This document shows, in pieces, positions 19,819 through 23,658 of a stretch of 47,266 nt of DNA. The position numbers were made by a program, and so were the translations under genes. How positions within the stretch are numbered: position 1 is the stretch's first letter; every line of letters starts with the position of its first letter. The notes beneath the pieces were generated by a model that was not told the DNA's origin, ran no database searches, and saw nothing but the letters and a program-made list of their open reading frames with translations. The DNA lies in NCBI GenBank assembly GCA_030055615.1, contig JASFYN010000001.1, positions 1 to 47,266 on the forward strand, in the 5' to 3' direction. This DNA comes from Methanothermobacter sp. GTDB lineage: Archaea; Methanobacteriota; Methanobacteria; Methanobacteriales; DSM-23052.

Positions 19819-20298
19819 GTGATAATTTTGGAGAGTAAAATAAAACGATGGCTCACTGAAGAAGGTCTTCTAGGGCAGATAGTAGATGATGAAAACGCCA
19901 ATTTCCATTTCATTGTAAATTACCCAGAAGACCATGTAATAGATGTCATACAACCAAAGGGTAAAAAAGATCTAGTATTGGTTGCATGTGCCACGAGCGT
20001 AAGCCCCGAACATTTATCAAAGATCCGGGAATTAAGCGAATCCAAAAGGGAAGAGTTTCTTTGGCAGATCAGATTCTCCTTGAACAAATTTCTCGTGGAC
20101 TTCCAATTAGAACATCCAAGAAACATCCTAGAAAGTTATCTTGTAACTGATGAGATTTACAATGATGCATTAACTAAAGATAGACTAATATCTACCATCA
20201 AAAAAGTATTTAAAGCCAAATTACATGTTTTATGGCTCATACAGAAGAGATTCGGAGAAAAAAAGGGTGAATTACCTGAAGATGCAATGTATGTATAG
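19819..20298 (+). CDS. DUF2299 family protein
   Basis: A 159-residue cytoplasmic protein matching DUF2299, an archaeal family of unknown function with a mixed alpha/beta fold resembling secretion-chaperone-like domains. It has KIKRWLTEEGLLGQIVDD at the N-terminus, an acidic middle part, and a helical C-terminus (LHVLWLIQKRFGEKK). The start is either GTG at 19819, five bases after AGGAGG, or TTG at 19828, after GGTGAT; a transcription start predicted from the TATA at 19781 would favour the latter. It is the last gene before the replication origin and ends 18 bases before the first mini-ORB. Confidence 0.8.
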   Translation: MIILESKIKRWLTEEGLLGQIVDDENANFHFIVNYPEDHVIDVIQPKGKKDLVLVACATSVSPEHLSKIRELSESKREEFLWQIRFSLNKFLVDFQLEHPRNILESYLVTDEIYNDALTKDRLISTIKKVFKAKLHVLWLIQKRFGEKKGELPEDAMYV

Positions 20299-20304
20299 AC
20301 CAGA

Positions 20305-20334
20305 GAGAGGGGTGCATTTCAAGTGTAAAATTTG
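20305..20334 (-). repeat. Long origin repeat, left copy 1, with exact mini-ORB at 20317-20329
   Basis: The minus strand of 20317-20329 reads TTTACACTTGAAA, an exact mini-ORB. The identity with the second copy (20359-20388) extends to 30 bp, 54 bp apart. The flank after the mini-ORB (minus-strand sense) is pyrimidine-rich and ends in CTCTC. Confidence 0.9.
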
Positions 20335-20358
20335 GAAGAGCCCCCCCCATAATAATGG

Positions 20359-20388
20359 GAGAGGGGTGCATTTCAAGTGTAAAATTTG
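20359..20388 (-). repeat. Long origin repeat, left copy 2, with exact mini-ORB at 20371-20383
   Basis: A 30-bp perfect direct repeat of 20305-20334, again with an exact TTTACACTTGAAA on the minus strand. A C8 tract lies between the two copies at 20341-20348. Confidence 0.9.
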
Positions 20389-20400
20389 TTGAGGGTGAAA

Positions 20401-20413
20401 TTTACACTTGAAA
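20401..20413 (+). repeat. Mini-ORB, exact 13-bp match, left cluster, plus strand
   Basis: TTTACACTTGAAA exactly, inverted relative to the copy at 20371-20383 with 17 bp between them. Outside the 13 bp it shares less with the other copies (followed by TCTATCTGA). Confidence 0.9.
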
Positions 20414-20775
20414 TCTATCTGACTGCAACAAACTATCCTTCACAAAATGAAGGGATTATTTGGGTTGGAGTAAATTTCACGTTTTTTAGTTTTATCTGAC
20501 AATTCTGGGGGGTTCTTTCACTCACTACACTTGCCTTGCTCAATTATGAACTGTTTTATTTGATTATTTTAAATATCCCATGAAATAATATCTCACTACC
20601 AAAACCAAACCTTGAAAGGGATTTAATGTTTTATATCTCTTCATCCTAACATTTTTACTTGAAGATATTATCATAACCCTAATGCGAATTTCCACGCATT
20701 CATTATAAAGTAATTGGGTAGTTGATTAATATATTTCACTCAAATTTCAATAATTTTAAGTTATAAGCTTTGAGA

Positions 20776-21122
20776 TTAAATACTAGACACATTCTTTTTT
20801 CCCCGAATTTCTTCAACTAACACTTCCATTGTAACTACACGAGCAAGAGAACTTATTATCATCGGAATAAGAGAAGGCAAAAGAATCTCAACATGATCCT
20901 TTAAAGCTGGAAAAATAAATTGATTCCAATTATTATTGATAAAACATAATATTTAATATCCTTTTATAAGCCCCGTGAAAAGTCAACAGGTTTCTTCTTT
21001 CAAAGCTTTTATTTTTTGATAGGTTTTCGCCACATTTTTTACAAAAACTTTGCAGTGGTTAAATTTCTGATTCCACAACCTGGACAAATAAAACTCTTTC
21101 CATCATGACTTATTGATTTCAT
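20776..21122 (-). pseudogene. Frameshifted remnant of a zinc-ribbon protein gene inside oriC
   Basis: Reading the minus strand from ATG at 21122 gives MKSISHDGKSFICPGCGIRN and stops at 21039. Removing one T from a run of five near 21042-21046 restores the frame and gives KFCKKCGENLSKN, completing a four-cysteine zinc ribbon (CPGC and CKKC). That second frame stops at 20933. A third frame, open from 20952 to a TAA at 20776-20778, continues with PALKDHVEILLPSLIPMI and ends EEIRGKKNVSSI. The protein-like quality across three frames suggests one gene of about 115 residues broken by two frameshifts. I recognise the zinc ribbon but not the rest. Confidence 0.45.
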
Positions 21123-21324
21123 TAAAATTTATACTCTTGATGGAGATCGATATTATCTTGGTTATTTTTGCTTTTTCCTCTCCTTTCCGGTGATCTATTA
21201 TGCATTTTTTCTAATTGGGACTTTTTCCTTTCTTTTTTTCTAATTTCTTAAGTGTGGGGTGTTAATTTCTTAATTTTATTAAGTTCAGTGTAGTGGTTTG
21301 TTTATATGGTTTGTTTGGGGGCTT

Positions 21325-21726
21325 TTAGTGTTTGGTGGAATTTAAGTTATGGGTTTTTGCTTCGATTATTTTTCCATTCTCCGTTTTTTTGATTTTGAAT
21401 TCCCATGTTTCTTCTTTATGGGTTTCTCCTTCTACTACTTCAAAAATTTGATGAATGACGTTGTATGATGTATCGAGACTTGTAAATTCCATGAGAGTTT
21501 TGTTAACTTTGACTTCACTGTTACCTCATTTGGACTTGATAAGACTATATCTAAAATTTTTGGGTATTCATAAATATAACAACGGGCGCCTATCTCCAAA
21601 TTACGACTCATTCGTAGTCTAAATATTCATTAATTAGCACTTTTATCTTCTTTCGTTATTCCTTGATATACGACCCAAAATTATTAAAACTGAAACTATA
21701 AGAATAGGAAAGATTATATTCTTCAA
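21325..21726 (-). pseudogene. Frameshifted remnant of a secreted-protein gene inside oriC
   Basis: On the minus strand, GGGAGG at 21734-21739 precedes a TTG at 21726 that opens MKNIIFPILIVSVLIILG, a clear signal-peptide-like sequence, stopping at 21643. In other frames the same strand continues with MSRNLEIGARCYIYEYPKIL (ATG at 21611, open to 21435) and then with MEFTSLDTSYNVIHQIFEVV (ATG at 21492, open to a stop at 21325-21327). The latter two overlap around VKSK/VKVNK, where a frame change would join them. Together they look like one secreted protein of about 130 residues with at least two frameshifts. The family is unknown to me. Confidence 0.45.
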
Positions 21727-22069
21727 TGTACATCCTCCCATAAGATATGTATTTTGCGATTTGGAGGTATAGAACTTTTAGTTACTGTATTTTAAAAGGA
21801 TTTTTTTAGGAAAATGGTGCTTTAGATATGTCAACGAACTGTAGCTTTTAAACGGTCAAATAATTAAATGAATTGAGCATGCAATTTTTTCAAATTTTTG
21901 CTTGAGAATTTCTATCGTACGAAAATACTGATTTGTAGAGCTTCTCCACCATCTTTTACAAAATTTTTTCATTGACTTTTCTGACATGCTATGATATAAT
22001 TTTTCTGTGATTTTATTTATTGGCTATTTTCAGCGATATATTATCATCTTATGATCTCTAATTTTCCAT

Positions 22070-22082
22070 TTACAAGTGTAGA
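22070..22082 (-). repeat. Degenerate mini-ORB, 11/13
   Basis: The minus strand reads TCTACACTTGTAA, differing from TTTACACTTGAAA at positions 2 and 11. It lies about 170 bp left of the right cluster and points the other way. Confidence 0.45.
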
Positions 22083-22250
22083 TATTTATAAAATTTTTCA
22101 TTTCTTCATTTTTTTTCTGTGCATGGAATTTTTAAGGTTTTAAAATCATTCTTTTGGATTAATTTAATGTTTTCTAGCAAGAAGTCTCATAAGCTTTTTT
22201 TACTATTAAATATGAAGAATATTCTTGAAGAATTACTATTTTTATATGAG

Positions 22251-22275
22251 TGTTACACTTGAAATGTATCTCTCT
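22251..22275 (+). repeat. Long origin repeat, right copy 1, mini-ORB at 22252-22264 (12/13)
   Basis: GTTACACTTGAAA matches the mini-ORB at 12 of 13 positions. The identity with the copy at 22303-22327 extends to 25 bp. Its 3' flank (TGTATCTCTCT) corresponds to the pyrimidine flank of the left copies. A GGTGGGGGT G-string follows at 22281-22289. Confidence 0.88.
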
Positions 22276-22302
22276 GTTTAGGTGGGGGTGCTCATTTTTC
22301 CT

Positions 22303-22327
22303 TGTTACACTTGAAATGTATCTCTCT
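22303..22327 (+). repeat. Long origin repeat, right copy 2, mini-ORB at 22304-22316 (12/13)
   Basis: A 25-bp perfect direct repeat of 22251-22275, 52 bp downstream, on the same strand and followed by a CT dinucleotide run. The spacing is close to the 54 bp of the left pair. Confidence 0.88.
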
Positions 22328-22392
22328 CTCTATTGTAATATTTTTATAGTATATTTTTAATAAAAAGTTTTATGTAATATTGTTGAGGAAAA

Positions 22393-22405
22393 GATACACT
22401 TGCAA
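22393..22405 (+). repeat. Degenerate mini-ORB, 10/13, nearest to orc1/cdc6
   Basis: GATACACTTGCAA keeps the core TACACTTG. It lies 107 bases before the orc1/cdc6 start codon and is followed by a GGTGGGGGT at 22432-22440. A site here could let the initiator control its own transcription. Confidence 0.6.
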
Positions 22406-22512
22406 TATAACGGTTTCATGTGTTTTAAACGGGTGGGGGTACGTTATTAAAGTCATTTGATTCTTACAAGTGGAGCCCAAAGAGTTCCTAAAATTTTATT
22501 AGAAGTGGTATC

Positions 22513-23658
22513 ATGAATGTGTTCGATGAATTAGAAGGTAGAAAGTCAGTTTTTAAAGATAGAAGATTTTTGGATCATAGGTTTTTACCGGATAAGCTAC
22601 CTCACCGTGAAGAACAAATAAGGGCTATAGCTAAGTATTGGGTGGAAGCACTTAGGGGTGTTACGCCACCAGATATCACAATCTATGGGAAGACAGGAAC
22701 TGGTAAAACTGCAGTGGCTAAATTTGCCATGAAACAGCTTAATGAAGCATCTAAGAATTCTGATGTTAATGTGAGGACAGAATATATACGTTGTACAGAT
22801 TACACTACGGAGTATCAAGTTTTGGCAAGATTGTGTCAGCAGTTTGGTAGGGATGTTCCTTATCGTGGATGGACAAAAGCAGAAGTCATAAATACTTTTA
22901 GGAGTCTTTTTAAAAAAAATGTTTTTGGACAAGACCTCATACTCATTGTAGTGCTTGATGAAATAGATATTTTACTTAAAAATGATGGAGATGGCCTATT
23001 ATATACTCTTACACGTACTGATAATGTTTCAATACTTTCAATTAGTAATTATGTAGATTTTAAAAAATTCATAAAACCGAGGGTAAGGAGTAGTTTAAGG
23101 GATCGTGAAATTGTTTTCCCACCATATGCCGCGCCACAATTAGTTGATATACTTAAAGAGCGTTCTAAATTATCATTCAAGGAAGGAGTGCTTGAGGACG
23201 ATGTTATACCATTATGCGCTGCTTTAGCCGCCAAGGAAGAAGGTGATGCTCGTTATGCTCTTGACCTTTTAAGAACTGCAGGGGAAATAGCAGACGAACA
23301 AGGTTCTAATGTCGTTAGAGGGGAATTTGTGAGAGAAGCAAAGGATTATATTGAACATAATAAAGTCACTGATATTATAATGACACTTCCAAGTCAACAA
23401 CAGAGAGTATTAGAAGCAATACTTTATCTCACCAAAAGAGGTGAAGAAATAACATCAGGCAGGCTTTATGAAATTTACAAGAAGATATCGCAGGGAGATT
23501 CTGTATCATATAGACGAATATTTGACTTCGTTAACGAATTAGAATTATTAGGACTCATATCTACCAATACTGTCTCAAAGGGCAGAGGAAAGGGCAGGAC
23601 CAATATTATAAAGTTGCAGTGCGATACATCAGTCCTTGAAAATGCCCTTTGGATGTGA
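22513..23658 (+). CDS. cdc6-1: Replication initiator Orc1/Cdc6
   Basis: A 381-residue AAA+ initiator that binds ORB repeats and is needed to load MCM at the archaeal origin. Walker A is GKTGTGKT (59-66), Walker B is VVLDEID (146-152), sensor 1 is SISN (176-179), and sensor 2 is [10 protein letters not shown] (244-253) with R247. The winged-helix domain covers about 290-381, with a basic segment SKGRGKGR near the end typical of the DNA-contacting wing. The length fits the Methanothermobacter Cdc6-1 type. The gene lies immediately right of the mini-ORB cluster, as is usual for archaeal origins, so autoregulation is plausible. GTGGTATC precedes the ATG. It is convergent with pyrB with one base between stops. 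Confidence 0.97.

Follow-up and report, generated by a model that had tools for sequence, protein, structure and literature searches.

Genetic work on which pairs of initiator boxes and which AT-rich stretch are needed to load MCM is known mainly from Sulfolobus and haloarchaea. Sulfolobus oriC1 (ORB2-DUE-ORB3) shares with the locus described here inverted initiator boxes that adjoin orc1 and accompany AT-rich DNA; the Sulfolobus region is about 130 bp long and carries a ucm motif that is bound by UBP (PMC12141716). In oriC1 and oriC2 of Haloarcula hispanica, as at our locus, AT-rich DNA next to cdc6 is enclosed by inverted ORBs, and a separate ORB-rich region acts on initiation in this haloarchaeon (PMC3936714). 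M. thermautotrophicus has a single mapped origin (PMC4010727) and a Cdc6 that binds cooperatively (PMC5333045), and the Methanobacteriaceae ORB motif of DoriC/Ori-Finder 2 reads TT[TA]CACTTGAAAT[GTA]T[CT][CG]TC (PMC4164010).

We analyzed a 47,266-nucleotide stretch of DNA from a thermophilic methanogenic archaeon (hereafter the window) and compared genomes from three families of one order, including the four genomes of the window's genus (f1) and eight genomes of a family (f3) that we take to be Methanothermobacter, one member of which is presumably M. thermautotrophicus dH. Gene order and box arrays were examined in detail in four f1 and seven f3 genomes. An intergenic gap of 2,214 bp (20299-22512) extends exactly from the stop codon of a DUF2299 gene (20298) to the ATG of the initiator gene orc1 (22513). 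DUF2299 is the left neighbor also in f1 and Methanothermobacter genomes, and the order cbiG-cbiB-DUF2299-(boxes)-orc1-pyrB, in which the names cbiG, cbiB and pyrB are assigned from translations, is common to the window and Methanothermobacter, presumed M. thermautotrophicus dH included. The predicted Orc1 contains an AAA+ module with Walker A (GKTGTGKTA) and Walker B (VLDEID) motifs, a lid and a winged helix, shares 86% identity with its family f3 counterparts, and finds its nearest Protein Data Bank matches in archaeal Orc1 chains (2v1u and 2qby_A, E about 1e-78). An apparent Cdc6_C match that suggested a second initiator (G000:C1:80915) proved to be a PadR regulator, and an Rfam search of the interval returned only a sub-threshold chance match to HOTAIR_1.

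Six initiator boxes occupy the gap between DUF2299 and the intact orc1 gene (Table 1), in keeping with a preliminary description that had placed boxes next to orc1/cdc6. That description had listed three exact mini-ORBs on the left, two on the minus and one on the plus strand, and these copies and their strands are borne out; the two 12/13 copies and one 10/13 copy that it gave for the right cluster were likewise found, all on the plus strand. Its 13-bp repeat is too short as a unit, as left minus and right plus boxes agree over 23-27 nt.

Table 1. Features of the predicted origin region and its flanking genes, in window coordinates.
Feature	Position	Strand	Description
DUF2299 gene	19819..20298	+	Left origin flank; Pfam PF10061, E 3e-45
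ORB 1	20307..20329	-	Exact mini-ORB TTTACACTTGAAA at 20317-20329 with TGCACCCCTC tail; kept in 4/4 f1 genomes
ORB 2	20361..20383	-	Exact TTTACACTTGAAA at 20371-20383; 54 bp from ORB 1 and oriented alike
Gap between opposed boxes, about 18 bp	20384..20400	.	Center of box orientation
ORB 3 (TTTACACTTGAAATCTATCTGAC)	20401..20423	+	Exact TTTACACTTGAAA at 20401-20413; kept with ATCTGACTG tail in 4/4 f1 genomes
Spacer	20430..22240	.	Poorly conserved intergenic DNA with gene remnants; about 1.8 kb, GC 0.288
ORB 4	22252..22274	+	12/13 copy at 22252-22264; -260/-261 from orc1 ATG in 4/4 f1 genomes
ORB 5	22304..22326	+	12/13 copy at 22304-22316; 52 bp from ORB 4; -208/-209 in 4/4 f1 genomes
Very AT-rich interval	22328..22391	.	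Candidate site of melting, GC 0.156; the intergenic region's least stable 60-mer overlaps it
Conserved element AATAAAAAGTTTTATGT	22359..22375	+	BRE/TATA-like; 35-39 bp before the orc1-proximal box
ORB 6, orc1-proximal (GATACACTTGCAA)	22393..22405	+	10/13 copy, degenerate here
orc1/cdc6 initiator gene	22513..23658	+	381 aa, intact; Pfam Cdc6_lid, Cdc6_C

The boxes are specific to this locus within the genome. Allowing up to 2 mismatches, the window holds 11 box matches compared to 3.1 ± 1.8 in shuffled sequence, and none of 100 shuffles reached 11. The whole 1.49-Mb genome has 7 exact copies of TTACACTTGAAA, 5 of them here, and all five genomic matches to the approximately 22-nt box TTACASTTGAAAYNNAYSTCTC (up to 2 mismatches) fall at this locus, with 0 control matches and no other cluster of 22-nt boxes in the f1 genomes. 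The two remaining exact 12-mers (C2:32450 and C2:447892) are lone sites that we took as chance, as we did a minus-strand box with 2 mismatches at 22070 that is not conserved in relatives. Because TTACACTTGCAA stands at the position of ORB 6 (-119 to -121 from the ATG) in the three other f1 genomes, we regard this degenerate copy as a genuine conserved site. The published Methanobacteriaceae motif (PMC4164010) fits the window boxes, although the left minus boxes end in CCCCTC and one box is degenerate.

Given the box specificity and a gene order that matches Methanothermobacter, presumed M. thermautotrophicus dH with its published origin included, we predict that the interval is a chromosomal oriC of known type, orthologous to the Methanothermobacter oriC and split by a tolerated spacer, a reading to which we assign a probability of about 0.78 from sequence comparison. 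The earlier proposal of a replication origin with Orc1/Cdc6 boxes is well supported as a prediction by genome-wide specificity, synteny, box homology, the ORB motif and the intact orc1 gene. Origins of this type are already established, and finding one here is expected.

Each of the four f1 genomes arranges its boxes in the same pattern, with two on the minus and four on the plus strand, comprising two minus boxes 52-54 bp apart, a plus box 30-31 bp on (start to start), a long spacer and three further plus boxes. The right-cluster steps are 52 and then 87-89 bp in each genome, which puts the boxes about 260, 208 and 120 bp ahead of the ATG, and the conserved pitch of about 52 bp is near five helical turns. 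Orientation switches inside the left cluster, where two minus boxes are followed after about 18 bp by one plus box, and the stretch of about 1.8 kb is flanked by two plus boxes in the same orientation. The mirrored clusters around an AT-rich core that had been described therefore hold in part: left minus and right plus boxes are indeed opposed, but the flip lies within the left cluster and the core lies between plus boxes. In family f3, arrays of 5-6 minus and 5-8 plus boxes with a pitch of about 51-52 bp oppose each other at 64-119 bp (start to start), and the last step before orc1 measures 88-94 bp. The window departs from this compact layout of opposed arrays of 5-8 boxes around a short interval, with its two minus and four plus boxes and an interval of 1.84 kb. 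It shares with the M. thermautotrophicus oriC at the orc1/cdc6-1 locus the gene neighborhood, the box, the pitch of about 52 bp, a last step of 88-89 bp and a AATAAAAnnTTTTAT element, but has six boxes where that origin has about 12, places its arrays 1.5-1.85 kb apart compared to about 64-119 bp there, and leaves one plus box stranded by the left cluster. Unlike Haloarcula hispanica, the window showed neither a G-rich inverted repeat nor an ORB-rich region downstream. A milder split occurs in genus g16 of family f2, two of whose three genomes have a plus box near the minus array, 317-325 bp from the next plus box.

These comparisons suggest how the layout may have arisen and how it might work. 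The ancestor probably had two opposed arrays and a short interval, as in Methanothermobacter; the f1 arrays would then have shrunk to six boxes, now parted by 1.5-1.85 kb of decaying DNA. Orc1 from the adjoining gene would bind the approximately 22-nt boxes, oppositely oriented Orc1-bound boxes would recruit the MCM helicase by analogy with Sulfolobus, and the DNA would melt in an AT-rich stretch between boxes, where replication would presumably initiate. Two candidates for this stretch are the 89-bp interval next to orc1, which is flanked by boxes of the same orientation, and the 1.8-kb spacer, which is not conserved.

Within f1 the spacer measures 1.48-1.85 kb, and that it is long in all four genomes, something pure accident need not give, counts against our reading. 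Among f1 genomes, long alignments cover the flanking boxes and the promoter region, unlike the spacer itself, for which blastn with the window sequence found matches at this locus in G003 only, as patches of 64-74% identity, and none in G001 or G002. The window spacer contains no intact gene, and a Pfam search of its six frames gave no match. On its minus strand, around 21000-21110, it does hold the remnant of a zinc ribbon, broken by a frameshift near 21050, that scores E 5e-6 only when the frameshift is read through, the frameshift having been chosen post hoc after seeing the sequence. The G002 spacer (L061:4231-5741) instead carries a broken fragment of a DUF2085 membrane protein (E 9e-8) that was not detected in the window spacer, and a further remnant peptide has no intact relatives among 151 genomes. 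Because the debris differs between two sister genomes, these observations suggest that the spacer is a tolerated stretch that collects and loses DNA, and its sequence appears to be tolerated rather than functional.

The preliminary description had instead proposed that the wide mirrored layout serves a purpose. In this alternative, the whole 1.8-kb core is the unwinding region and each cluster loads one MCM hexamer, with the hexamers meeting across or melting the core. The opposition of left minus and right plus boxes and the length of the spacer in all four f1 genomes agree with such a model, as does the Sulfolobus case, where MCM is steered by inverted ORBs into the DUE between them (PMC12141716), but the third left box breaks the mirror and the known inverted-ORB intervals are far shorter, at 130 bp for Sulfolobus ORB3-DUE-ORB2 and 64-119 bp in Methanothermobacter. 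The core is also only slightly more AT-rich than the other intergenic DNA of the window (GC 0.288 compared to 0.317), the markedly AT-rich stretch being at about 22328-22391, and it varies in length and sequence and holds gene remnants while its flanks are nearly fixed. We therefore find a purpose for the wide layout unsupported, and consider it unlikely that the core unwinds as a whole. Genus g16 speaks for a functional core and against a dispensable spacer: the homologous gap of 317-456 bp between its arrays is very AT-rich and is the least stable DNA there, unlike in most f1 genomes and the f3 genomes tested, and the f1 spacer could thus be derived from a genuine unwinding region.

Returning to the split origin, conservation and the lowest stability coincide in the 89-bp orc1-proximal interval, which carries AATAAAAnnTTTTATnT. 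The least stable 60-mer falls in this interval in the window genome, two of the three other f1 genomes and the four f3 genomes tested; in L059 the interval ranks second. Within the interval, a conserved element agrees with AATAAAANNTTTTATNTNA at every position in the four f1 genomes, in the seven f3 genomes examined over extended regions and in several f2 genomes. Genome-wide, 24 similar sites occur with up to 1 mismatch compared to 6 for a reversed control, counts in which some palindromic sites appear twice. Several of these sites stand 24-108 bp ahead of a gene on the same strand. Because similar sites often precede same-strand genes, we favor a promoter reading, in which the element is probably the BRE/TATA of the orc1 promoter; it and the 89-bp interval may possibly also be part of the unwinding element and the site of melting. 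A promoter-like interval between same-orientation boxes, in place of canonical inverted ones, counts against the split origin as the best explanation. A transcript driven by the AATAAAAnnTTTTAT promoter-like element would begin about 25 bp on, at the orc1-proximal box, and because this last box falls at the expected transcription start, Orc1 probably represses its own gene.

The same promoter architecture bears on a second alternative, in which the inverted pair of the left cluster alone is the working origin and the right cluster is an Orc1 operator of the orc1 promoter. The only closely spaced inverted pair does sit on the left, and the right boxes flank the promoter-like element, with the last of them at the expected transcription start. 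However, the right cluster retains the Methanothermobacter pitch and the 87-89 bp step, the 18-bp gap on the left offers no obvious room for MCM, and the left cluster is GC-richer (0.42), making this division of labor improbable, more so than unwinding of the whole core.

To examine strand asymmetry, we used purine excess at fourfold sites in 40 sampled 20-kb stretches of the presumed M. thermautotrophicus genome as a control. Strand-corrected purine skew places the control origin at 1.28 Mb, the position of orc1 (t 6.9), with a residual of 5.6 that none of 200 rotations equaled. For the complete f1 genome G002, the best uncorrected axis lies near 0.4/1.02 Mb and codon usage dominates the skew (PC1 84%). 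With the codon-usage axis removed, the G002 residual is 2.7 at orc1, a value as high in 3.5% of rotations, and the global maximum lies elsewhere and is non-significant; this residual is weakly compatible with an origin at orc1. Neither raw nor strand-corrected GC skew in G002 was counted for or against an origin at orc1, since the axis of A3/C3 versus T3/G3 codon usage makes up 84% of variance. Across the sampled G002 stretches (L079-L118), GC and AT skews are strongly anticorrelated, unlike in the M. thermautotrophicus control.

The lack of a clear G002 skew minimum at orc1 counts against the oriC reading, and together with the uncorrected axis elsewhere it would fit a third alternative, in which the boxes serve chiefly as Orc1 operators or are a relic, and f1 replication begins elsewhere or needs no origin. 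Deleting its mapped origins does not prevent a haloarchaeon from replicating (PMC3984812), and the window has fewer boxes than Methanothermobacter. Nevertheless, conservation of the boxes and their spacings is strong across the four f1 genomes, no second box cluster offers itself as an origin, and the dominant codon-usage axis blunts the skew argument, and we judge this alternative the least probable of the three, with only a slim chance of being correct.

The locus amounts to a natural experiment, as sister lineages have initiator and box in common: about 12 boxes form compact arrays in one, and in the other a six-box array is split by kilobases. This contrast makes it testable which box pairs and which AT-rich stretch MCM loading requires. 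A promoter-like element with a box at the expected start likewise makes orc1 autoregulation testable. We propose only tentatively, as somewhat doubtful, the stronger claim that the origin works across the genus with clusters held about 1.5-1.85 kb apart by poorly conserved gene debris, by MCM loading over the long gap or by initiation at the 89-bp interval; if true, it would mean that opposed arrays need not lie side by side.

Beyond the locus, each of the eight f3 genomes has one or two boxes of matching sequence some 100 kb away from orc1 (for example L159:5144-5251, the same site as G148:C1:1377133-1377250). In those read in detail, the distant boxes sit between a YchF-like GTPase gene, which ends shortly upstream of them, and a P-type ATPase gene, both named from translations. 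These boxes may be an initiator-titration or regulatory site, as has been proposed for Haloarcula oriC2 (PMC3936714). Lone degenerate copies stand at the equivalent place in two f1 genomes (G000 C2:400484 and G003 C4:3208).
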